NCBI GenBank assembly: GCA_011191975.1
Contig: DUFA01000023.1
Location: forward strand, 1-43,513
Origin: Dehalococcoidia bacterium
GTDB lineage: Bacteria; Chloroflexota; Dehalococcoidia; Dehalococcoidales; UBA2162
Direction: 5' to 3'
Length of the DNA stretch: 43,513 nucleotides
A program made the position numbers and the translations under genes. The notes beneath the pieces were generated by a model. That model saw only the letters and a list, made by a program, of their open reading frames with translations. It made no database searches and had not been told where the DNA came from. Numbering within the stretch: position 1 is the stretch's first letter; each line of letters opens with the position of its first letter. Shown in pieces: positions 13,085 to 25,180 of this stretch.

Positions 13085-13159
13085 AGAAGTCATAAAAAAT
13101 AATATTTAAAACATTCAAGCATAATTATCTCTAGTAATACCTGATTTTTTGACTCTAGC

Positions 13160-13188
13160 TTGACAATAAATTTCCGCTATGTTACTCT
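13160..13188 (+). promoter_or_regulatory. Promoter of ilv leader and operon
   Basis: A perfect -35 TTGACA (13160-13165) is followed after 17 bases by TACTCT (13183-13188), a weak -10. Transcription would start near 13194-13196, only 2-4 bases before the ATG of the leader peptide. Confidence 0.55.
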
Positions 13189-13197
13189 AACATCACG

Positions 13198-13242
13198 ATG
13201 AAGGAAAATCAGATTATTTTAGTACTCGTTATTTATCCATAA
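13198..13242 (+). CDS. Branched-chain leader peptide (ilv attenuator)
   Basis: A 14-codon reading frame, MKENQIILVLVIYP then TAA. Codons 6-12 are Ile-Ile-Leu-Val-Leu-Val-Ile, exactly the three amino acids made by the downstream genes, in one uninterrupted run. This is the composition of known ilv and leu leader peptides, whose ribosome stalls when charged tRNA is scarce. No Shine-Dalgarno precedes the ATG, but the predicted transcript starts 2-4 bases upstream, so it may be read as a leaderless message. It ends 26 bases before the terminator stem. Confidence 0.75.
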   Translation: MKENQIILVLVIYP

Positions 13243-13250
13243 CCCGGTCT

Positions 13251-13280
13251 GTGGGAAGGATCAGCAAGGGCCGTCCCCAC
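13251..13280 (+). promoter_or_regulatory. Candidate antiterminator pairing
   Basis: GTGGG (13251-13255), just after the leader stop codon, can pair with CCCAC (13276-13280), which covers the 5' arm end and loop of the terminator. The two folds exclude each other, as an attenuator needs. The pairing is short (5 bp), and a separate weak CCC/GGG stem (13243-13245 with 13253-13255) could act as the protector fold. Confidence 0.4.
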
Positions 13281-13295
13281 GGGACGGCCTTTTTT
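13266..13295 (+). terminator. Intrinsic terminator/attenuator before ilvD
   Basis: GGCCGTCCC (13269-13277) and GGGACGGCC (13281-13289) form a perfect 9-bp stem with a three-base loop, extendable by AAG/TTT, followed by six T (13290-13295). It is a strong Rho-independent terminator lying 33 bases before the ilvD start, in the same direction, with no gene ending just before it. It therefore serves as an attenuator rather than a gene-end terminator. Confidence 0.85.
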
Positions 13296-13328
13296 ATAGA
13301 TTAAAAAGCTGAGTTATAAGGAGAAAAA

Positions 13329-14993
13329 ATGAGAAGTGATGCCGTTACAAAAGGTATAGAGCGAGCCCCGCACCGTTCTCTTCTTCATGCCCTTGGCTGG
13401 AGTAAATCTGACTCGGGAAAACCCATGATTGGAGTGGTAAACAGTTTTACGGAGATTGTTCCAGGTCATATTCACCTCAGACAAATATCTGAAGCCGTTA
13501 AAGAAGGTATTTCAGCAGGTGGAGGAGTCTCTTTTGAGTTTAATACTATAGCTGTATGCGACGGGATAGCGATGAATCATCCCGGTATGAAATACAGCCT
13601 TCCTAGTAGAGAGTTAATTGCTGATTCTATCGAGATAATGGCTGAAGCACATCAATTCGACGGACTGGTATTTATTCCAAACTGCGACAAGATAGTGCCG
13701 GGAATGTTGATGGCGGCGATAAGAATGAACATCCCCTCTATCTTTATCAGTGGCGGTCCGATGCTTGCCGGTCAACAGTACAAGAATGGTAATTTTGAGA
13801 AAGTAGATTTGATATCGGTATTCGAATCTGTCGGTAAGGTGACAAGCGGACAGATGACCGAAGAAGAGTTGATCGAACTGGAAGAAATCGCCTGTCCGGG
13901 TTGTGGAAGCTGTGCAGGAATGTTTACGGCTAATACGATGAACTGTGCCACTGAAGCAATGGGAATGGCTTTACCCGGTAATGGTACTATTCCGGCGGTT
14001 GACGGAAGAAGGCGACAGCTGGCAAAAGAAGCCGGTAAAAGAGTGGTAAAACTGGTCAATGAAAATGTCACGCCGTCAGATATAATAACTTCTGATTCGA
14101 TCCACAATGCGTTCAGTGTCGATATGGCTCTCGGCGGCAGCACAAATTCCGTTTTACACCTTATGGCGATAGCTAACGAAGCAAAGATAGACTTCGACCT
14201 GGCAAAGGTGAATCAAATAAGCCAGAGTACACCCCATATATGCCTGTTAAGTCCGGCAGGTCCGAATAGAATCGAAGACCTGGATAGGGCGGGTGGTATT
14301 TCTGCCGTAATGAAGCAACTTGATAAACAAATGAAAAAAGACACCCCAACTGTTTCAGGCAAAAAGGTTTCCCAGATAATAAGTGAAGCCGTTATTGTCG
14401 ATAGAGAAGTTATCAGACCAGTCACCAATCCATATTCAGCGGTAGGTGGTATTGCTATTCTGTTTGGTAACCTTGCTCCCGAAGGAGCAGTTGTTAAACG
14501 TGCTGCGGTCGCACCCGAGATGATGGTACATGAGGGACCTGCCAGGGTATTTGATTCTGAAGAAGACTCAATGCCAGCTATTATGAATAGCCAGATCAAG
14601 CCGGGTGAAGTGATTGTTATACGGTACGAAGGTCCCAAGGGTGGTCCGGGAATGAGAGAAATGCTTACACCAACCTCATTATTGAGTGGTGCCGGCCTTG
14701 ACAGCGTAGTAGCACTCCTTACCGACGGACGCTTTTCTGGTGGGAGTCGGGGTGCAGCTATTGGGCATATTTCACCTGAAGCAGCCGCAAGAGGACCGAT
14801 TGCAGCCGTTCAAGATGGAGATATCATAAAAATAGATATCCATAACTGTAAACTAGATGTCGATTTGAGTGAAAAAGAGATAAAAGACCGCCTGGCTGAA
14901 TTACCTGACTTTGAACCCAGGATAAAGACAGGTTATCTGAGTAGATATACAGAGAAGGTATCATCAGCCAGTACCGGTGCGGTGTTCGTGTAA
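13329..14993 (+). CDS. ilvD: Dihydroxy-acid dehydratase
   Basis: Third common step of valine and isoleucine synthesis: dehydration of 2,3-dihydroxy acids to 2-keto acids. 554 residues. Fe-S cysteines appear in AVCDGIAM (C77), NCDKIVPGM (C119) and [11 protein letters not shown] (about 189-195). The segment [13 protein letters not shown] lacks the cysteine of the PCNxHL motif of [2Fe-2S] enzymes and matches the E. coli-type form, so an oxygen-labile [4Fe-4S] cluster is likely (inference), fitting an anaerobe. The start ATG has AAGGAG 5 bases upstream. It is first in the attenuator-controlled operon. Confidence 0.96.
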
Positions 14994-15011: not shown

Positions 15012-16730
15012 ATGAAAATGACCGGTGCCCAGATAATATGTGAATGCATGGTGAAGGAAGGAGTGGAGGTTGTCTTCGGCATCCTTGGTGGTGCCGTTTT
15101 ACCGTTGTACGATACCTTACCGCAGTATCCTCAACTTCACCATGTCCTTGTCCGGCACGAGCAGGGCGCGGCTCATGCGGCTGATGGGTACGCACGGGTT
15201 ACTGGAAAAGTAGGCGTGTGTTTCGCCACTTCTGGACCTGGTGCGACTAATCTGGTTACCGGTATTGCGAACGCCCACCTGGATTCTGTACCAATGGTGG
15301 CTGTAACCGGTCAGGTTGCCAGACCATTTATTGGCAAAGATGCTTTCCAGGAGGTGGATATTACCGGTATTACATTACCCATAACTAAACATAATTATAT
15401 GGTACGAAACGCTTCACAGATGGCGGAAACAGTAAAAGAAGCTTTTTACCTGGCCAGATCAGGAAGACCCGGCCCTGTCCTGATTGATGTTCCAAAGGAT
15501 GTCTTCGCTGAGGAAGTTGAGTTTAATCTGCCAAACAGGATAAACATCGCCGGTTATAAACCAACTCTGCAGGGACATCCCACACAGATAAAAAAAGCAG
15601 CTAAGGTAATTAACGAAGCAAAAAAGCCAATACTTTTAGCGGGTCGAGGTATTTTAATATCCGGAGCTAGCGCCAAACTAAAACAACTGGCCGAAACCGC
15701 TCAGATTCCGGTAGTGACAACATTACTTGGGATAAGCTGTTTCCCTGGAACTCATATTCTAAATTTCGGAATGGTTGGTATGCATGGCTTGGCCGCTGCC
15801 AACATGGCATTAAACGAGACTGACTTGATCATTGCGGTAGGAATGAGATTCGATGACCGTGTTACTTCAAACGTAAGTACTTTCGCCCCTAATGCGAAGG
15901 TTGTACATATCGATATAGACCCGGCAGAAATAGGAAAGAACGTTCGAGTCGATGTTCCCATCGTCGGTGATGTGAAAGTAGTTTTAAATGAGTTGCATAA
16001 ACTCATCGAAACCAGGCAAAATCTGGGATGGTTTGAGCAACTGGAAACCTGGCGTAAAGAACATCCTTCAACCTATATAAGAGAGTCTGAAGAAATCCTG
16101 CCCCAGTATGTCGTGAGTAAGATATATGAAGCCACAAAAGGTAATGCAATAGTTACAACCGGTGTTGGTCAAAACCAGATGTGGTCAGCCCAGCATTACC
16201 TGTTTGATAGACCTAATACATTTGTCTCATCAGGCGGACTGGGAACGATGGGATTCGGCCTTCCGGCAGCGATCGGTGCCAAAATAGGGTGTCCGGATGA
16301 GACTGTGTGGTGTATTGACGGCGACGGAAGCTTCCAGATGACTATTCAGGAACTGGCTACGATAGCTCAGGAAAGGATAGCCGTGAAGATCGCCATCCTG
16401 AACAACGGTTTCCTTGGAATGGTAAGACAGTGGCAGGAATTATTCTATGACAGGAGATATGTAGCAACGCCGTTAAGCGGACCGGATTTCGTTAAGGTAG
16501 CAGAAGCATACGGCATTGCTGGTGCATTGGTAAAGAATAAAATAGACGTAATTCCAGCAATCGAGAGAGCAATGGCTGAAGATGGGCCATTCCTGGTTGA
16601 TTTCAGGGTGGAACCTGAGGAAAATGTTTATCCCATGGTTCCACCGGGAGAAGATATTAACGCGATGGTTGAAGAACCTCGTGAGATAGTTAAAGTCGAT
16701 TCGAAAAAAATAAAAACTCGTAACATGTAG
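15012..16730 (+). CDS. ilvB: Acetolactate synthase, large subunit
   Basis: Thiamin-diphosphate enzyme condensing pyruvate with pyruvate or 2-ketobutyrate, the first common step of the pathway. The 572 residues show the catalytic glutamate E50 in VRHEQGAAH, GPGATNLVTG, the FAD-site RFDDRVTSN region of biosynthetic AHAS, and the ThDP/Mg motif beginning GDGSFQMT and ending in ILNN. The start follows AGGAGG. It sits 18 bases after ilvD and 16 before its regulatory subunit, so stoichiometric cotranscription is expected. Confidence 0.97.
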   Translation: MKMTGAQIICECMVKEGVEVVFGILGGAVLPLYDTLPQYPQLHHVLVRHEQGAAHAADGYARVTGKVGVCFATSGPGATNLVTGIANAHLDSVPMVAVTGQVARPFIGKDAFQEVDITGITLPITKHNYMVRNASQMAETVKEAFYLARSGRPGPVLIDVPKDVFAEEVEFNLPNRINIAGYKPTLQGHPTQIKKAAKVINEAKKPILLAGRGILISGASAKLKQLAETAQIPVVTTLLGISCFPGTHILNFGMVGMHGLAAANMALNETDLIIAVGMRFDDRVTSNVSTFAPNAKVVHIDIDPAEIGKNVRVDVPIVGDVKVVLNELHKLIETRQNLGWFEQLETWRKEHPSTYIRESEEILPQYVVSKIYEATKGNAIVTTGVGQNQMWSAQHYLFDRPNTFVSSGGLGTMGFGLPAAIGAKIGCPDETVWCIDGDGSFQMTIQELATIAQERIAVKIAILNNGFLGMVRQWQELFYDRRYVATPLSGPDFVKVAEAYGIAGALVKNKIDVIPAIERAMAEDGPFLVDFRVEPEENVYPMVPPGEDINAMVEEPREIVKVDSKKIKTRNM

Positions 16731-16746: not shown

Positions 16747-17292
16747 ATGGCACCTACGAAGCATATACTTATAGCGCTGGTTGAGGACAAACCTGGTGTC
16801 TTGAACAGGATGGCAAGTCTGTTCAGACGCAGGAGTTTTAATATTGAGAGTATTGCTGTCGGTAGAAGTGAGGTACCCAACATATCAAGAACAACCATAG
16901 TTGTTGATGGAACCACCACATCTGTCGAACAGGTCAGGAAGCAACTAGATAAAGTTGTAGATGTCGTGAGAGTGGTTGAACTAAGTGATGAAGATACCAT
17001 AAGCAGGGAACTTGCTCTTGTGAAGGTAAAATCTAGTTCAACGACTAGAAGTGAGATCATGCAGATTGTAGATATTTTCAGAGCCAATATCGTTGATGTC
17101 GGTTCCGATTCGTTGACTGTCGAGGTTACCGGCGATGAAAACAAGATCAACTCTTTACTTACCTTACTCCAGGGTTTTGGCATAAGGGAATTAGCCAGGA
17201 CTGGCAGAATAGCAATGACTCGAGGATTACTGAGTCCCTTACAAATCGAAAAAGATGTACAGAGTACTCGTACCAATAAGAAGAAGGAATAA
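16747..17292 (+). CDS. ilvN: Acetolactate synthase, small regulatory subunit
   Basis: Binds IlvB, activates it and confers valine feedback inhibition. The N-terminal ACT domain begins HILIALVEDKPGVLNRMASLFRRR (about residues 5-28) with the FNIESIAVG strand, and a second ACT-like C-terminal domain follows. The 181 residues are slightly longer than the ~160 typical, with a charged tail. The ilvC gene, which normally follows, is not here; a universal stress gene with its own promoter comes next. Confidence 0.95.
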   Translation: MAPTKHILIALVEDKPGVLNRMASLFRRRSFNIESIAVGRSEVPNISRTTIVVDGTTTSVEQVRKQLDKVVDVVRVVELSDEDTISRELALVKVKSSSTTRSEIMQIVDIFRANIVDVGSDSLTVEVTGDENKINSLLTLLQGFGIRELARTGRIAMTRGLLSPLQIEKDVQSTRTNKKKE

Positions 17293-17364: not shown

Positions 17365-18330
17365 ATGTATCATCGAATGCTGGTCCCACTGGATGGTTCG
17401 GAACTTGCAGAAGTTGTTTTTACTTACGCAAAGGAACTTGCCGGAAGGCTGGATATCGATGTTACCTTACTCCACGTTGCTTCACCTGCCGGTAAAAGCA
17501 TGCTGCCGATGCAACAGGCCTATATTAGGCGTGCTGCTGACAAAGTGAAGAAACAGGCCAGGGAAGTCCAACAGATTACGGGGATCGAGCAAGCAGCCGA
17601 AGCCGTAAAGGTAAAAGGTGAAATTGTCGAAGGATATCCAGCCGACGAGATTTTAAAATATGCGGAAGAGAATGAGTTTGACCTTATTCTGATGGCAACA
17701 AGAGGCCATTCTGGTCTGAGGAGATGGAGTATAGGGAGTGTTGCCTCTAAAGTGCTTAGTGCTTCAAAAATACCCGTCTGGCTGGTAAGAGCAGATCATA
17801 CTCCGGATCAAACTTATGATGAGTGGCCGACTAAGACACTCCTTGTTCCGCTGGATGGATCCGATCTAGCAGAAGAAGTACTCCCTCATGTTGAAATACT
17901 TGCCAGACAGAAAGGTGAAGAATCACTCGAAGTAGTTCTGTTAAGGGTTGCTGAAACACCCAGTATACCATCTTATTACGGCCCTGAACTTTCCGGTGTA
18001 TCTCTCAACTGGGGTGAGTTTATGCAACAGGAAGAAGTCAGGAGAAAGAAATCATCGATAGAATACCTAGATAAAATCGAAGAACAGTTAAAAGCTAAGA
18101 GTATTAATGTAAAATCAATTGTGGTCGAAGGCAAGGCTAACGACGAGATAATTAATTACGCCAACAGTAATCCTTATACCATGATCGTAATTGCCAGCCA
18201 TGGTCGTTCCGGATTAAGCAGGCTGGTATACGGAAGTGTTGCGGCAAATCTCCTTAATGGAGTTACCTGTCCGATTTTTATGGTTAAACCTAAACCAAAG
18301 GAAAAAGAGAAAGAAAAAGAGAACGAGTAA
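17365..18330 (+). CDS. Tandem universal stress protein
   Basis: Two UspA domains in one 321-residue chain. Each has the ATP-binding G-x2-G-x9-G-(S/T) signature: GHSGLRRWSIGSVASK near residue 116 and GRSGLSRLVYGSVAAN near 277. The protein ends in a highly charged Lys/Glu repeat (KPKEKEKEKENE). Usp proteins bind nucleotides and support survival under stress; a specific role cannot be read here. It has AGGAGG before its ATG and its own putative promoter, and it splits the ilv and leu halves of the operon where ilvC would be expected. Confidence 0.93.
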   Translation: MYHRMLVPLDGSELAEVVFTYAKELAGRLDIDVTLLHVASPAGKSMLPMQQAYIRRAADKVKKQAREVQQITGIEQAAEAVKVKGEIVEGYPADEILKYAEENEFDLILMATRGHSGLRRWSIGSVASKVLSASKIPVWLVRADHTPDQTYDEWPTKTLLVPLDGSDLAEEVLPHVEILARQKGEESLEVVLLRVAETPSIPSYYGPELSGVSLNWGEFMQQEEVRRKKSSIEYLDKIEEQLKAKSINVKSIVVEGKANDEIINYANSNPYTMIVIASHGRSGLSRLVYGSVAANLLNGVTCPIFMVKPKPKEKEKEKENE

Positions 18331-18508: not shown

Positions 18509-20026
18509 ATGGATAAAGTAATAATATTCGATACCACACTAAGAGACGGTGAACAGGCAGCCGGAGCTACTCTAAATATCCAGGAAAAGGTTGAAATTGC
18601 CAGGCAACTGGAAAAGCTGGGCGTTGATGTTATCGAAGCAGGAATGCCTGTGAACTCTCGAACCGAACTGGAAGCAGTCGCACAGATTTCCAAAGAAGTA
18701 CGCAATGCTACTATTTGTGGTTTAGCACGCGCACTTCCCGCTGATATTGATAGAGCATGGGAAGCAGTTAAAGAAGCTGAGGATCCTCGAATACATGTCT
18801 TTCTCTCTGCGTCCGACATCCATATCATGCATCAGCTTAAGAAAAACCGTAACGAGATTTTGGAAATGGCACGAGCAGGTGTTGCCAGGGCAAAAGGATA
18901 TCTACAGAACGTTGAATTCTCACCGATGGATGCCAGCCGGGCTGAACCAGCATACATCTACCAGATGCTTGAAGCGGTGATCGACGCTGGAGCTACGACA
19001 GTTAACATTCCTGATACGGTCGGGTATGCCATGCCTGATGAATTCGGAAGCCTGATAGAAGGCATTTTGAAAAATGTATCCAATATAGACAAGGCAATAA
19101 TAAGCATTCACTGCCATAACGATCTTGGTATGGCAGTAGCCAACAGTCTGGAAGCTATCAAACGCGGAGCGAGACAGGCAGAGTGTACTATAAACGGTAT
19201 TGGTGAAAGAGCCGGCAATGCTTCACTGGAAGAAATTGTTATGTCCATCAAGACACGTCGTGACTTCTATAATCTCGAAACGGGAATCGATACCACACAA
19301 ATATACAAAACCAGCAGACTGGTCAGCGACCTGACAGGTTTTCCGGTTCAACCTAATAAAGCCATTGTCGGGGGGAATGCCTTCCGGCATGAGTCCGGTA
19401 TTCACCAGGATGGCGTTATCAAGATGCCTATTACCTACGAAATCATCGAACCTCAAGCAGTGGGAATTCCTGCGAGTACGCTGGTCCTGGGAAAATTGAG
19501 TGGAAGGCATGCCTTCAGGGAAAGACTGGCAGAACTGGGTTATAGCCTGACAGAAGAAGAATTTACCCAGGCATTTGCTGCCTTCAAGGAACTTGCCGAA
19601 AAGAAAAAAGAAATTACCGATAGAGATATAGAATCGCTTCTTGCTGAAGAGAAACGCACTGTCACTGAAGATTACCGTCTTAAACGACTACAGGTAACAT
19701 GCGGAGATAAAGGGATGCCGACCGCTGCTGTGAGACTCATCACACCTGATGAACGAACGATCGAAGACGCTGCCTTAGGGACAGGCCCTGTCGATGCGGT
19801 ATACAAGGCGATCAATCGTCTCGTCGGCGTCCCAAATAAACTTACAGAATTTAGTGTAAAGTCGGTAACCGAAGGTATTGACGCTATCGGTGAGGTGCTA
19901 ATCAGGATTGAAAGCGACGGTATATCCTATACAGGGCGCGGTGCGGATACCGATATTATCGTGGCCAGTGCAAGAGCGTATATTAACGCCTTGAACCGTC
20001 TTATTGCTGCAAAAAGAGCTGCATAA
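18509..20026 (+). CDS. leuA: 2-isopropylmalate synthase
   Basis: First committed step of leucine synthesis: acetyl-CoA plus 2-ketoisovalerate to 2-isopropylmalate. The 505 residues fit the long form with a C-terminal allosteric LeuA dimer domain. Seen: [15 protein letters not shown] at 8-22, [12 protein letters not shown] near 200, [14 protein letters not shown], and [14 protein letters not shown] at the linker. The regulatory domain (from about 390) suggests leucine feedback inhibition. The start ATG is preceded by AGGAGA. The upstream 178 bases contain candidate regulatory folds. Confidence 0.95.
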
Positions 20027-20113
20027 AGACCGTCTGGTAACGAAAATAGTATACTGGTAATGACAGGCAGGCTTATTCCAGAAAGAACATAAGAATATAT
20101 AGAGGTGTGTGAA

Positions 20114-21364
20114 GTGACATTAGTTGAAAAAATTCTAGCCGTCCATTCGGGAAAGGACAGAGTAAGTCCTGGAGAATTCATCAACGCCAGGGTCGATGTC
20201 ATACTGGCTAATGATATAACGGCACCGATAGCTATCAAGGAATTCAGGAAGATAGGTGTCGATAAGGTTTTCGATCCTTTAAAGATAGTAATGGTGGCCG
20301 ACCATTTTGTACCGAATAAAGATATACTTTCGGCTGAACAGGCAAAGTTCATGCGAGATTTTTGTCTCGAGCAAGGTATAAAATGCTATGACGTTGGTGA
20401 AATGGGTATTGAGCATGTGCTGCTTCCCGAAAAGGGTATAGTACTTCCCGGAGATGTGATTATAGGAGCTGACTCGCATACATGCACTTATGGCGCTATC
20501 GGTGCGTTTTCAACCGGAATGGGTTCGACCGATATCGCTTCAGCAATGGCAACCGGATATATCTGGATGAAAGTACCCCAAACAATTAAGTTCGTGTATA
20601 ACGGTACATTGAGTAAATGGGTTGGCGGTAAGGATCTGATACTTCATACTATTGGCGATATAGGTGTGGACGGTGCTCTGTATTCGGCTATGGAGTTTAC
20701 CGGTAAGGCTATTAGCAGCCTCCCCATGGATGGACGATTCACCATGGCAAATATGGCTATTGAAGCCGGAGCGAAAGCAGGAATATTCCATGTAGACGGA
20801 AAAACGTCAGCTTATCTCAAACTGCGTGCGAAACGGGAATACACCATTTACGAACCGGATATTGATGCCGAATATGAAAAGGTTATCGAGTACGATGTTT
20901 CTTCACTCGAACCGCAGGTATCTCTTCCCCATTTACCATCCAATGCCAAACCGGTTAGCCAGGTAAAAGGCATAAAAATCGATCAGGCTGTAATTGGCAG
21001 CTGTACTAATGGTCGTCTGGAAGACCTGAGACTTGCTGTCGAGGTACTGAAAGACAGGCATGTACACCCGCATGTGCGTTGCATAATCATTCCAGGAACT
21101 CAACAAGTGTATCTTGACGCATTGAAGGAAGGTATTATCGAAAAACTCTTAAAAGCAGGTGCAGCTGTAAGTACACCTACTTGCGGACCATGCCTGGGCG
21201 GTCATATGGGTGTATTGGCAGAAGGAGAAAAATGCATATCTACAACCAACAGAAATTTCGTTGGTAGAATGGGACACACGAAATCTGAAGTATATCTTGC
21301 CAATCCGGCTGTGGCTATGGCAAGCGCTATTACCGGTGAGATAACCAGGCCTGATAACGTATAA
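20114..21364 (+). CDS. leuC: 3-isopropylmalate dehydratase, large subunit
   Basis: Aconitase-family subunit isomerising 2- to 3-isopropylmalate with LeuD. [4Fe-4S] ligands are in [11 protein letters not shown] and [13 protein letters not shown]. About 416 residues fits the HacA/LeuC type of anaerobes and archaea. Two GTG starts are possible (20105 and 20114). I chose 20114 because GAGG lies 8 bases upstream and the N-terminus MTLVEKILA fits the family; for 20105 the purine tract is too close. The small subunit follows after an inserted MGMT-like gene. Confidence 0.94.
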
Positions 21365-21399
21365 TGCTGGCTGGCATTCTAAGTACGCCTAAAACGGAC

Positions 21400-21433
21400 G
21401 AAGGATCTCCTTTCAAATGAGATAAGATCCTTC
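21400..21433 (+). terminator. Hairpin between leuC and the MGMT-like gene
   Basis: GAAGGATCT (21400-21408) pairs with AGATCCTTC (21425-21433), followed by TTTCC. An alternative inner stem ATCTC/GAGAT (21405-21409 with 21419-21423) competes with it. It may attenuate transcription into the next genes or be a processing site. Confidence 0.45.
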
Positions 21434-21484
21434 TTTCCGAAAACATCGGAACTCAGGATGACATACTCTCAGGAGGTGAAGTTG

Positions 21485-21961
21485 ATGGCTAAACTAAAGA
21501 AATCCTGGAAAGAGAAACTGCACGAAGACAGGAAAACTGAAGTTGTCGAGATAACCGGGAAAATGAGTCAGAAATGGGGAACCGGCACTTGTGTGATACC
21601 GGCACCAATGGAAGTAGATGAACTTATGAGAATGGTTCCCATGGGAAAACTGATAACGATCAACCAGATAAGAGAGACGCTGGCGAGGAGACATGGCGCT
21701 ACGATTGGCTGACCTATCACAACCGGCATTTTTGCCGGGATCGCGGCACGTGCGGCCGCTGAAGATGAAGCCGAAGGAATCCATGAGATTACTCCTTACT
21801 GGCGGACTTTAAAATCAAAAGGTGAACTGAATGAGAAGTACCCCGGAGGACTTGAAGGACAGGCAGAGCGGTTAGAAAAAGAAGGACATACAATCGAGCT
21901 TGACAGGAAGGGAAAACCTAAAAAGGTAAAGGGCTTTGAGAAAAGCCTGATCGAAGTGTAA
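21485..21961 (+). CDS. MGMT-like DNA-binding protein with in-frame TGA (Sec candidate)
   Basis: Small protein of the MGMT/ATL C-terminal winged-helix family (DNA-binding domain of O6-alkylguanine methyltransferases). The ATG at 21485 has AGGAGG 8 bases upstream. The frame is open for 158 codons except one TGA at 21710-21712 (codon 76). Before it come the wing-HTH ([22 protein letters not shown]); after it [28 protein letters not shown] and [11 protein letters not shown], all family blocks. Homologues, as I recall them, read GATI(G/A)CPITTGIF, so TGA replaces the conserved, probably reactive cysteine. Sec insertion is one reading; a nonsense mutation or sequencing error is the other. A stop at TGA would leave 75 residues. 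Confidence 0.75.
21723..21759 (+). promoter_or_regulatory. Hairpins just after the in-frame TGA
   Basis: Stem one is CCGGC (21723-21727) with GCCGG (21734-21738), loop ATTTTT, starting 10 bases after the TGA. Stem two is GCGGC (21743-21747) with GCCGC (21755-21759), loop ACGTGCG. Bacterial SECIS elements lie in this place, but neither loop has the G in the first two positions that is usual, so SECIS identity is doubtful. Confidence 0.25.
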
Positions 21962-21980
21962 ACACCGAGGAGATTTAATA

Positions 21981-22484
21981 ATGCTGGAAGGAAAAGTACA
22001 TAAATTCGGCGCGGACGTAAACACCGATGAGATTATCCCGGCTCGATACTTGTATCTCTCCGAACCGGATGAGCTGGCAGAGCATTGCATGGAAGATATA
22101 GACGCTGATTTTTTGAAAAAGGTTGAACCGGGAGATATCATAGTGGCTACCACCAATTTCGGTTGTGGGTCGTCCCGTGAACATGCCCCTATAGCCATAA
22201 AAGCTTCAGGCATATCATGTGTCATTGCGAAAAGCTTTGCCCGTATATTCTTCCGAAATTCTATCAATATAGGTTTACCATTGCTTGAATGCGAGGAAGC
22301 GGTGGATGGAATAGAAAATGGTGATGTAGTGGAAGTCGACCTCGCGAGGGGTATGATAACAAATACCAAGAGTGGCAAGATATACGCAGCCAAGCCGTAT
22401 CCCGGATTCATGGGAGAGCTTATCGCTGCCGGCGGTCTTATAGAATATACAAAGAAAGAAGTTGAAAAACTGAGGAGGAGTTAA
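21981..22484 (+). CDS. leuD: 3-isopropylmalate dehydratase, small subunit
   Basis: Swivel-domain partner of LeuC, 167 residues, matching the short archaeal/anaerobe type. Signatures: [12 protein letters not shown] at about 13-24 and [14 protein letters not shown] near 57-70. The stop TAA overlaps the leuB start (TAATG), so the two are translationally coupled. AGGAG precedes its ATG. Confidence 0.96.
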
Positions 22485-23581
22485 TGCAATTCAATATTGC
22501 CGTACTGCCGGGTGACGGCATAGGTGTGGATGTTTGTACTGAAGCGGTTAAAGTATTGAGAACAGTAGGGAAGAAGTATGGTCATGAATTTAAACTAAAA
22601 GAGGGTTTGGTTGGCGGGATTGCTATCGACGAGACGGGTGAACCCCTGCCGAAAGAAACTCTTAAAATATGCAGGATTTCACAGGCGGTTATGCTTGGTG
22701 CAGTTGGCGGTACCAAATGGGACGACCCGAACGCGAAGACCAGACCGGAAAACGGTCTTCTTGAGCTCAGAAAGAAGATGGGGCTGTTTGCCAACCTGCG
22801 ACCTGTAAAAGTATTTCCCATGCTCATAAATGGCACCAATCTAAAACCGGAGATAATCGACGGAGTCGATTTCATTTTTATCAGAGAACTTACCGGCGGT
22901 CTGTATTTCGGTAAGCCGAAGAAACGCTGGGAAACTGCCGGTGGCAGGAAAGCCGTCGATTCGATGCTGTATTCAGAGCAAGAAATTGACAGGATCGTCC
23001 GGGTTGGCTTCGAACTGGCGCGTACACGGGGTAAGAAACTGATTTCCGTTGATAAAGCAAATGTACTCGAGTCTTCACGATTGTGGAGAACAGTTGCGAT
23101 GGAGGTGGCTGGAGATTATCCGGACGTGGAAATCGAGCACATGCTGGTAGATGCCTGTGCCATGCGTATTATCCAGAATCCTAAATACCTGGATGTCCTG
23201 GTTACTGAAAATACATTCGGTGATATTCTTACCGACGAAGCATCGATGCTTGCTGGCTCAATGGGTATGCTGGCATCAGCAAGTCTTGCCGGCGTACCAC
23301 AGGAAGGAAAAGCAATACCGGGGCTCTACGAACCGATTCACGGCAGTGCACCGCGTCGAGCCGGGCTTGACATGGCAAATCCGATAGCAATGATACTCAG
23401 TACGGCGATGATGCTCAGGTATTCCCTGTGCCTAAATGAAGAAGCGAAAGCAGTAGAGGACGCGGTTGAGTCAGTTCTCAATCATGGATATCGCACCTAT
23501 GATATAATGGACGAGGGTAAAACCAAGGTTGGAACAGCCAGAATGGGAGACCTTATAAGCAAAGCCATAGAGGAGAAATAA
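22484..23581 (+). CDS. leuB: 3-isopropylmalate dehydrogenase
   Basis: NAD-dependent oxidative decarboxylation of 3-isopropylmalate to 2-ketoisocaproate. The 365 residues include the N-terminal LPGDGIG block, RPENGLLELRKKMGLFANLRP, the catalytic YS and K regions, and ENTFGDILTDEASMLAGSMG. GLYEPIHGSAP is the cofactor loop of LeuB rather than isocitrate dehydrogenase. It is coupled to leuD at the 5' end and to cimA at the 3' end. Confidence 0.96.
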   Translation: MQFNIAVLPGDGIGVDVCTEAVKVLRTVGKKYGHEFKLKEGLVGGIAIDETGEPLPKETLKICRISQAVMLGAVGGTKWDDPNAKTRPENGLLELRKKMGLFANLRPVKVFPMLINGTNLKPEIIDGVDFIFIRELTGGLYFGKPKKRWETAGGRKAVDSMLYSEQEIDRIVRVGFELARTRGKKLISVDKANVLESSRLWRTVAMEVAGDYPDVEIEHMLVDACAMRIIQNPKYLDVLVTENTFGDILTDEASMLAGSMGMLASASLAGVPQEGKAIPGLYEPIHGSAPRRAGLDMANPIAMILSTAMMLRYSLCLNEEAKAVEDAVESVLNHGYRTYDIMDEGKTKVGTARMGDLISKAIEEK

Positions 23582-25180
23582 TTGGCTTCCGTAGAAATAT
23601 ACGATACTACTCTCCGTGATGGTGCTCAGAGTGAAGGAATATCCTTTTCCCTGGGTGATAAAATTCATATTGTCGAAAAACTTGATGAACTTGGTGTTCG
23701 CTACATCGAAGGTGGCTGGCCAGGATCAAATCCGAAGGACGCTGCATTCTTTAAACGTGTTCAGAAAGTCAAACTCCGGAACGCAAGAATAGCCGTCTTC
23801 GGAAGCACACGTCGTGTGGGTATTAAAGCTGAAGAAGATAAAAATGTCATAATGCTGGTAGATTCAGGTGCTTCAGTCGCAACGATTGTAGCAAAGGCAT
23901 CAGCGCTTCAGGTGAAGCATGTACTTAACACGACTCGTGAAGAAAACCTCAACATGATAGAAAATACTATCAGGTATTTGAAATCCAAAGAAATGACGGT
24001 TTTTCTTGATGCTGAGCACTACTTTGACGGCTATAAATCGGATCCTGAATATGCTCTACAGTGTGTTAGGGCAGGTGCTGAAGCAGGCGCTGATTGTATC
24101 GTATTATGCGAAACAAACGGTGGAGCTTTGCCCGATGAAGTTGAGAAGGCAGTTAAAGCCGCGAAAAAAGCGACAGGTACTCCTCTGGGCATACATACTC
24201 ATAATGATGCTGGTCTGGCAGTTGCTAACACCCTCGTGGCAGTAAAGGCAGGAGTAACCCATGTACAGGGAACGATAAATGGATACGGAGAACGCACCGG
24301 TAATGCGAATTTGTGTTCTATCATTCCGTCGTTAAAGCTTAAGATGAATATCGAATGCATTTCAGATGAACAGCTGGCAAAGCTAACCGAGATATCTCAT
24401 TTTATAAGTGAACTGGCAAATCAAGCTCCCGCTCCTTTCGCCCCTTATGTCGGATCCAGCGCTTTCAGTCATAAAGCTGGATATCATATGGACGGTATGC
24501 AAAAATGGCCTGAGGCCTATCAGCATATTGATCCGACAAGAGTTGGCAATCAACAGAGAACCGTTGTTTCCGAACTTTCTGGAAAGCGGAATATATCGTT
24601 TTTAGCCCAAGAAATGGGTATTAAGCTTGAAGCACGATCACCCGAAACAAAAGATCTTCTCCAGAAAGTAAAGCAGCTTGAGAGTCGGGGGTTTCAGTAC
24701 GAACATGCTCAGGCATCTTTTGAAATGCTGGTTCGCCGTGCTACTTCGGACTATGTCCCTCCATTCGAGTTGGTAGATTATATGGTTGTTGTTGAAAGCA
24801 AGCGGCGTCAACCAACGAAAACAAATACCGAAGACATGCTTTCAGAAGCTATGGTAAAAGTGAAAATAGGGGATGAATTATTCCATACTGCTGCTGAAGG
24901 CAACGGACCGGTGAATGCACTCGATGATGCTCTACGAAAGGCCCTGCTTCAATATTACCCAAGCCTGAAAGTAGTCAAACTAGTTGACTACAAAGTGCGT
25001 ATTCTTGAAGAAAGTACCGGTACTGAGTCTCAGGTACGTGTGCTGATTGAATCAAGCGATGGCAACGAAGAATGGACTACCGTTGGCAGTTCTACCAATA
25101 TCATCGAAGCGAGCTGGATGGCACTCGCCGACAGCCTTGAATACTGGCTCAACAAAAATGAAAAAACTATCCGGTCGTAA
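23582..25180 (+). CDS. cimA: (R)-citramalate synthase
   Basis: Condenses acetyl-CoA and pyruvate to citramalate, the threonine-independent route to 2-ketobutyrate for isoleucine. 532 residues. DTTLRDGAQSEGISF (8-22), IHTHNDAGLAVAN and NGYGERTGNANL are shared with LeuA, but the N-terminal DGAQSEGISFS form and total length indicate the CimA subgroup. The C-terminal LeuA-dimer domain suggests isoleucine feedback. The start is TTG, directly after the leuB stop. LeuCD and LeuB could also process citramalate, which fits the shared operon. Confidence 0.9.
   Translation: MASVEIYDTTLRDGAQSEGISFSLGDKIHIVEKLDELGVRYIEGGWPGSNPKDAAFFKRVQKVKLRNARIAVFGSTRRVGIKAEEDKNVIMLVDSGASVATIVAKASALQVKHVLNTTREENLNMIENTIRYLKSKEMTVFLDAEHYFDGYKSDPEYALQCVRAGAEAGADCIVLCETNGGALPDEVEKAVKAAKKATGTPLGIHTHNDAGLAVANTLVAVKAGVTHVQGTINGYGERTGNANLCSIIPSLKLKMNIECISDEQLAKLTEISHFISELANQAPAPFAPYVGSSAFSHKAGYHMDGMQKWPEAYQHIDPTRVGNQQRTVVSELSGKRNISFLAQEMGIKLEARSPETKDLLQKVKQLESRGFQYEHAQASFEMLVRRATSDYVPPFELVDYMVVVESKRRQPTKTNTEDMLSEAMVKVKIGDELFHTAAEGNGPVNALDDALRKALLQYYPSLKVVKLVDYKVRILEESTGTESQVRVLIESSDGNEEWTTVGSSTNIIEASWMALADSLEYWLNKNEKTIRS

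Follow-up and report, generated by a model that had tools for sequence, protein, structure and literature searches.

Anatomy of the locus upstream of ilvD

The stretch of DNA analysed here (the window; 43,513 nucleotides, contig DUFA01000023.1 of a Dehalococcoidia bacterium) begins inside leuS (64-2391; match C81:7-765), and the leuS promoter of this genome therefore does not lie in the contig. Further along, on the plus strand, a cluster of branched-chain amino acid genes is headed by ilvD and preceded by a compact leader element (13160-13295). The features are as follows.

13160-13188, plus strand: promoter, TTGACA (13160-13165), 17-nt spacer and TACTCT (13183-13188), with an extended -10 TG at 13180-13181
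13198-13242, plus strand: leader peptide ORF MKENQIILVLVIYP*, 14 codons, ATG at 13198, TAA at 13240-13242
13213-13233, plus strand: control codons 6-12, Ile-Ile-Leu-Val-Leu-Val-Ile
13235-13261, plus strand: predicted alternative (1:2 type) hairpin, AUCC/GGAU plus CCCG/UGGG, in the minimum free energy and centroid folds
13251-13255, plus strand: antiterminator arm (segment 2), GTGGG, complementary to 13276-13280
13266-13277, plus strand: terminator 5' arm, whose end together with the loop (13276-13280, CCCAC) is antiterminator segment 3
13281-13295, plus strand: terminator 3' arm and T tract (T at 13290-13295)
13318-13323, plus strand: Shine-Dalgarno sequence AAGGAG of ilvD
13329-14993, plus strand: ilvD, dihydroxy-acid dehydratase (NCBIfam NF002068 and TIGR00110, above cut-off)
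15012-16730, plus strand: ilvB (TIGR00118/TIGR00119 above cut-off for ilvB and ilvN)
16747-17292, plus strand: ilvN (same families)
17365-18330, plus strand: universal stress protein (Usp) gene with two Usp domains, between ilvN and leuA
18509-25180, plus strand: leuA, leuC, an MGMT-like gene, leuD, leuB and cimA (NCBIfam equivalogs above cut-off)
21485-21961, plus strand: the MGMT-like gene, between leuC and leuD (PF01035 at 24.3 bits, just under the cut-off of 27)

Promoter, frame, Ile/Leu/Val run, stem with six T and GTGGG/CCCAC pairing are all present where the first-pass annotation of this DNA had placed them. The leader ORF reads ATG AAG GAA AAT CAG ATT ATT TTA GTA CTC GTT ATT TAT CCA TAA, and inspection of the sequence before it revealed no Shine-Dalgarno motif, unlike for ilvD. 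The terminator stem described there as a perfect 9-bp helix indeed consists of nine Watson-Crick pairs between GGCCGTCCC (13269-13277) and GGGACGGCC (13281-13289) around the loop CAC, and reaches 12 pairs via a G-U and two A-U pairs that run into the T tract (hairpin ΔG -21.3 kcal/mol in the window). The GTGGG/CCCAC pairing and the terminator are mutually exclusive. The alternative hairpin would overlap the stop codon and sequester segment 2, a role that we infer from its predicted fold; its exact AUCC/GGAU plus CCCG/UGGG form is specific to the window, and in most relatives segment 2 can instead, as judged by eye, pair with a nearby downstream CTCCAC. The T tract ends 33 nt, and the leader ORF 86 nt, before the start of ilvD.

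We note that neither the promoter nor the terminator was reported by a simple consensus scan with strict criteria. The -10 hexamer TACTCT matches the consensus at just three of six bases and, because the scan missed this weak site, the promoter call rests on conservation. Similarly, the plain leader fold is not unusually stable (z -1.48), and structure alone would therefore not have revealed the element. A covariance model trained on ilvD leaders only (R1) matches 13156-13295 with 128.1 bits (E 1.8e-21), the window being among the model's own sequences.

The chance of seven such codons in a row had been called very low. When the 244-nt intergenic region was shuffled 3000 times with its dinucleotides preserved, no ATG-ORF with a seven-residue Ile/Leu/Val run arose (highest six, four times). 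The run alone is nevertheless not unique, being found in two of the 582 short ATG-ORFs on both strands of the whole window; what counts is its place between promoter and terminator.

The order and common strand of the genes suggest that ilvD through cimA could form a single transcript, with the Usp gene intervening. Inspected by eye, the gaps ahead of the Usp gene, leuA and the MGMT-like gene showed no further strong terminator with a T tract. The cluster lacks ilvC, which is found elsewhere in the genome (G000:C48).

The MGMT-like gene carries one in-frame TGA (21710-21712) at residue 76 (ATIG-TGA-PITTGIF), where Cys is expected, and a hairpin (CCGGCA-UUUU-UGCCGG) starts shortly past it. Since the genome encodes SelA (E 1.1e-141), this gene is a candidate selenoprotein gene, the alternatives being a sequencing error or a pseudogene; selenoproteome papers name an MGMT family.

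Conservation of the leader before ilvD in relatives

We took ilvD together with its upstream sequence from two sources, the kinship group (61 genomes) and named public contigs, the latter nearly all labelled Dehalococcoidia, Dehalococcoidales or Chloroflexi. The leader is present in 24 of the 97 distinct upstream regions, and later covariance-model members bring the set to 36 distinct ilvD leaders, all from the same order. In these, as the first-pass annotation had anticipated for an alignment of related genomes, the short Ile/Leu/Val-rich ORF, its stop codon, the antiterminator arm and the terminator are kept while other bases vary, with one terminator decayed (L008). Two layouts recur. In one (xxILVLVxYT-stop), the stop codon mostly precedes GTGGG by 5-9 nt; in the other (MNxQNVxLVLIVxxxx-stop), it abuts GTGGG. 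The first scan had also marked upstream ORFs in L009 and L021, which are situated in the remains of the upstream gene and were dropped.

The promoter is equally constant. All 24 of the first-examined ilvD leaders have TTGACA, a TG before the -10 and TAnnnT at the -10, with a spacer of 17 nt in 19 and 18 nt in five, and the gap from the -10 to the ATG, 9 nt in the window, is 6-10 nt in every one of them. A start about 7 nt past the -10 would give a 5' UTR of only some 0-3 nt, and the leader ORF mRNA is therefore probably leaderless or nearly so, a point that the first-pass annotation did not raise; the gap is longer in some of the valS leaders described below. The same promoter-to-ATG arrangement occurs 26 times in the window genome versus six times for the reversed pattern, and nine of the 26 sites open frames of more than 150 codons, which makes it plausible that the organism has leaderless genes. 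Among the 26, the ilvD leader is the only one that joins a leader-sized ORF to a strong hairpin followed by T; one other site (L313) also has a hairpin, but behind a 243-codon frame.

Related leaders before leuS and valS

Within the order, R1 also matches before leuS (12 leaders) and valS (five leaders), although these counts are not independent, since nearly all come from one family. The leuS leaders belong to family f16 and to one genome of the window's own family, and the valS leaders to f16 only; when the sequences upstream of leuS and valS were searched throughout the order, the trio proved confined to one family, plus one leuS leader elsewhere. NCBIfam confirmed the identities of leuS and valS for one member each. 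The leuS leader peptides are Leu-rich (e.g., MKRKNLTLTLSIDSP, MNRQELILLLSSP and MKKQDLALTLNKH), and the valS leader peptides carry runs of Val (MTINPVVVVM, MNTTVVVVTK, MKRTVVVVTI, MSTKLVVVVTY and MLNLVVIVTSLSR). Val makes up 39% of residues in valS leaders versus 2% in leuS leaders; Leu is found in all leuS leaders, and Val is absent from eight of 11.

The codons thus track the amino acid of the downstream gene (Ile/Leu/Val for ilvD, Leu for leuS and Val for valS), and the comparison strongly supports ribosome-mediated transcription attenuation. The leuS and valS leaders, which go beyond the first-pass proposal, weigh most in its favour: such a correspondence between codon run and downstream enzyme is expected of a sensor that works by ribosome stalling, and is difficult to account for in other ways. 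Short leader genes near structural genes have also been proposed to act by reinitiation (PMC4833913), and the leader ORF might in principle merely raise ilvD translation in this manner, with no amino acid sensing. However, the 86-nt distance to ilvD, the strong terminator in between and ilvD's own Shine-Dalgarno sequence argue against such a role, and reinitiation leaves the specificity of the control codons unexplained; we give this explanation a negligible chance. With the codon-to-gene match and the conservation described above, the reading as a peptide attenuator put forward by the first-pass annotation is supported.

Codon choice is also biased in the leuS leaders, where CUC or CUU serves for 35 of 38 Leu codons and CUG is never used, while CUG is the commonest Leu codon (49%) in the genes behind these leaders (binomial p 1.5e-15, to be discounted since the leaders are related). 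Such a preference could be expected of regulatory codons. Among the leuS and valS leaders of f16 (L144-L166), the Val codons are mostly GUC or GUU and GUA is absent; the genes that follow these leaders differ in this.

Many genomes of the order that have no peptide leader carry a different hairpin-plus-T element before leuS, GCTCTTCGC...GCGGAGGGCTTTTATTTA (L187, L190, L192, L197, L209 and others), which is perhaps another attenuator. The bin of the window holds additional leuS- or valS-like genes at G000:C160 and G000:C119, with lower identity (49% and 38%); these copies fit the bin's estimated contamination of 8.3%.

Spacing and coding constraint of the control codons

The distance between codon run and antiterminator is close to fixed. 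Exactly 18 nt separate the last Val codon from GTGGG in every one of the five valS leaders, although the stop codon lies 0, 9, 9, 9 or 12 nt before it. Similarly, in the 36 ilvD leaders the distance from the last control codon to GTGGG has a standard deviation of 1.68 nt, versus 4.16 nt for the distance from the stop codon. Shared ancestry contributes to the constant spacing, but the stop codon, with the same ancestry, moved. These figures are for the ilvD and valS leaders alone, as the spacing heuristic misassigns four leuS leaders (L144, L147, L152 and L164).

Within ilvD leaders, coding constraint is also stronger on the control codons than on the codons around them. For the 14-codon type (13 aligned leaders), pN/pS is 0.32 for the LVLV codons versus 0.66 for codons 2-5; in the 17-codon leaders it is 0.19 for codons 8-12, versus 0.63 and 0.94 for the neighbouring codons (0.94 for those after).

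RNA structure and ribosome position

The terminator has a mean ΔG of -17.1 kcal/mol over 53 elements, one of them decayed. The duplex between segments 2 and 3 has a mean energy of -10.1 kcal/mol, versus -6.1 kcal/mol with shuffled partners. Because MAFFT, applied to all 24 leaders, puts the second subtype's segment 2 in the wrong place, covariation was judged by per-sequence tables and duplex energies. The two segments are mostly invariant (GTGGG/CCCAC), and evidence from covariation is therefore limited to a few lineages: L010 keeps the pairing with both sides changed (CTGGAG/CTCCAG), and the pairing also persists through changes in L146 (GTGGAC/GTCCAC) and L147. A leader's own pairing beats foreign segment-3 types in 664 of 1007 comparisons, only moderately in favour, because segment 3 is nearly constant.

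We modeled the position of the ribosome with constrained partition functions, for a transcript whose terminator loop has only just emerged and with an assumed downstream footprint of 12 nt, the value quoted in PMC4833913. Antiterminator pairing in the window comes to 0.87 if the ribosome sits on the last control codon, versus 0.02 if it sits on the stop codon; the means over 52 elements are 0.77 (stalled) and 0.08 (at the stop codon). The folding outcome depends on the footprint, and at 8 nt there is no difference between the stalled and stop-codon positions for the window. Ribosome-free RNA also favours the antiterminator (0.61), and a strong shutdown in untranslated RNA is therefore not predicted.

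Distribution and an ORF-less form

Within the order, the covariance models match in 39 (R1) and 47 (R2) of 156 genomes, some weak matches being an ORF-less form. Outside it, there was no convincing match in 393 genomes of the class and 400 of the phylum (overlapping samples, searched under strict filters with a model trained on this family, a search that would miss unrelated peptide attenuators). On a tree of 109 IlvD sequences, the leader requires ten changes versus 30.4 with shuffled labels, and its carriers do not form one clade. Since L031 (with the leader) and L033 (without) are close neighbours in this tree, leaders have recently been lost, replaced or exchanged.

In 28 relatives, including genomes of family f9 (L013 and L016), ilvD is preceded by the same promoter and terminator with no leader ORF. 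The ORF-less form (L033, L006, L009, L012, L015, L022, L025, L046 and others) occupies the last 100 nt before ilvD. Its segment GAGGTGGG is able to pair with CCCCAC (CTGAAGG/CCTTCAG in L025 and L021), the motif CTGAAGGTGGGATTTCGG is frequent, and about 35 nt of transcript precede the terminator.

An attenuator version without the ORF thus exists, in L033 as a near neighbour of the ORF-bearing L031, and one may ask whether the element is a promoter-proximal terminator under non-translational control (by an RNA-binding protein, a small ligand or fixed dampening) to which the ORF is incidental. Where the ORF exists, however, its control codons are constrained, match the amino acid of the downstream gene and keep a fixed distance to segment 2, none of which is expected of an incidental ORF, and we regard this explanation as improbable, with only a slim chance of being correct.

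T-boxes are likewise at hand, as the window genome has them at ileS, trpE and a trpB-like gene, and a distant relative (L108) has one before ilvD. A T-box or another known riboswitch class at the leader itself is nonetheless scarcely credible: no Rfam family reaches its gathering score here, the leader of about 100 nt falls far short of the 219-position T-box model, and the strongest match under threshold, Phe_leader (26.4 bits versus a threshold of 55), is to a peptide attenuator. Rfam searches at gathering and relaxed thresholds returned only tRNAs and, sub-threshold, Phe_leader. The T-box of the distant Dehalococcoidia relative (L108:1138-1374, 110 bits) lies upstream of ilvD, and so represents the same gene with a different sensor.

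A proposed model for attenuation of the branched-chain amino acid cluster

In sum, we consider it very probable that the element controls the branched-chain amino acid cluster as a ribosome-mediated (leader-peptide) transcription attenuator. The first-pass annotation had called it a translational attenuator; the attenuator stands, and its kind is corrected to a transcription attenuator governed by translation. Anatomy, conservation, codon-to-gene match and spacing are observed and the folding consequences computed; from these we infer the actual start site, stalling, termination and in-cell regulation as follows. RNA polymerase would start about 7 nt past the -10, placing the ORF at or a few bases from the 5' end, and the leader ORF would be translated without a Shine-Dalgarno sequence. 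When charged Ile-, Leu- or Val-tRNA is scarce, the ribosome would stall on codons 6-12 with its front edge short of GTGGG; the freed GTGGG would then pair with CCCAC, blocking the terminator and allowing transcription of ilvD and the genes after it. When all three amino acids are plentiful, the ribosome would reach the stop codon and cover GTGGG, the terminator would form, and transcription would end at the T tract.

We further suggest, as a tentative proposal with somewhat less than an even chance of being right, that one cassette (extended -10 promoter, near-leaderless peptide ORF, 18-nt ruler, antiterminator and terminator) was retargeted within one Dehalococcoidia order from the branched-chain amino acid operon to leuS and valS by swapping little beyond the codon run, and that it is interchangeable with the ORF-less promoter-terminator unit seen at 28 ilvD loci, in which a new small regulatory RNA may be the sensor.

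Comparison with known systems

Peptide attenuators of ilv, leu and phe genes are classical in Enterobacteria (ilvGMEDA, ilvBN, leuABCD and pheST). The leader described here resembles them in its short ORF rich in the regulated amino acids, its competing antiterminator and intrinsic terminator, and the biosynthetic or synthetase gene behind it. Unlike them, it matches no Rfam leader family at threshold, belongs to a different phylum and has a leader ORF without a Shine-Dalgarno sequence.

In Actinobacteria, peptide attenuators have been predicted or studied, including those of ilvB and leuS (PMC1262725), the leaderless ilvL and leuL of Streptomyces lividans (PMC8079986) and the ilvBNC leader peptide of C. 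glutamicum (PMC10272879). The leaders of Streptomyces (ilvL, and leuL before leuS and leuA) and of C. glutamicum ilvBNC share with ours branched-chain amino acid codons, ilv operon and leuS targets and, probably, a leaderless ORF. Contrary to these, the first gene here is ilvD, a strong terminator with a T tract is present, and one common element (promoter, segment 2 and terminator) spans ilvD, leuS and valS. We found no valS leader peptide in the literature searched. Naville and Gautheret (2010) presented their Firmicutes hisS case as, to their knowledge, the first leader peptide system shown beyond Proteobacteria and Actinobacteria (PMC2965389). In agreement with the first-pass view that such an element was undescribed in Dehalococcoidia, the literature searched, which was thin on subscription papers, yielded no peptide attenuator in Chloroflexi/Chloroflexota, although the surveys of Lopatovskaya et al. 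(2010) and Vitreschak et al. (2004) may hold an earlier prediction. As far as could be checked, this is a real attenuator of the classical kind in a phylum new for it.

Translation-coupled attenuation would thereby extend to a phylum in which the literature searched describes no case, and would require close coupling of transcription and translation there. The leuS/valS/ilvD trio offers a natural experiment, with one scaffold, three codon runs, three genes and a near-fixed codon-to-hairpin distance; with these natural sequences, the ribosome-ruler model and regulatory codon choice can be put to the test.

T-boxes (RF00230) regulate the same pathways in Firmicutes. Unlike the leader described here, they sense uncharged tRNA directly, measure about 220 nt and contain no ORF. 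The first-pass annotation had set peptide leaders against T-boxes, a contrast that needs nuance, as the window genome has both: its three T-boxes are the same three (ileS, trpE and trpB-like) that PMC2494555 records for Dehalococcoides, where it lists T-boxes only. Peptide attenuators and T-boxes would thus divide the amino acid pathways inside one genome.
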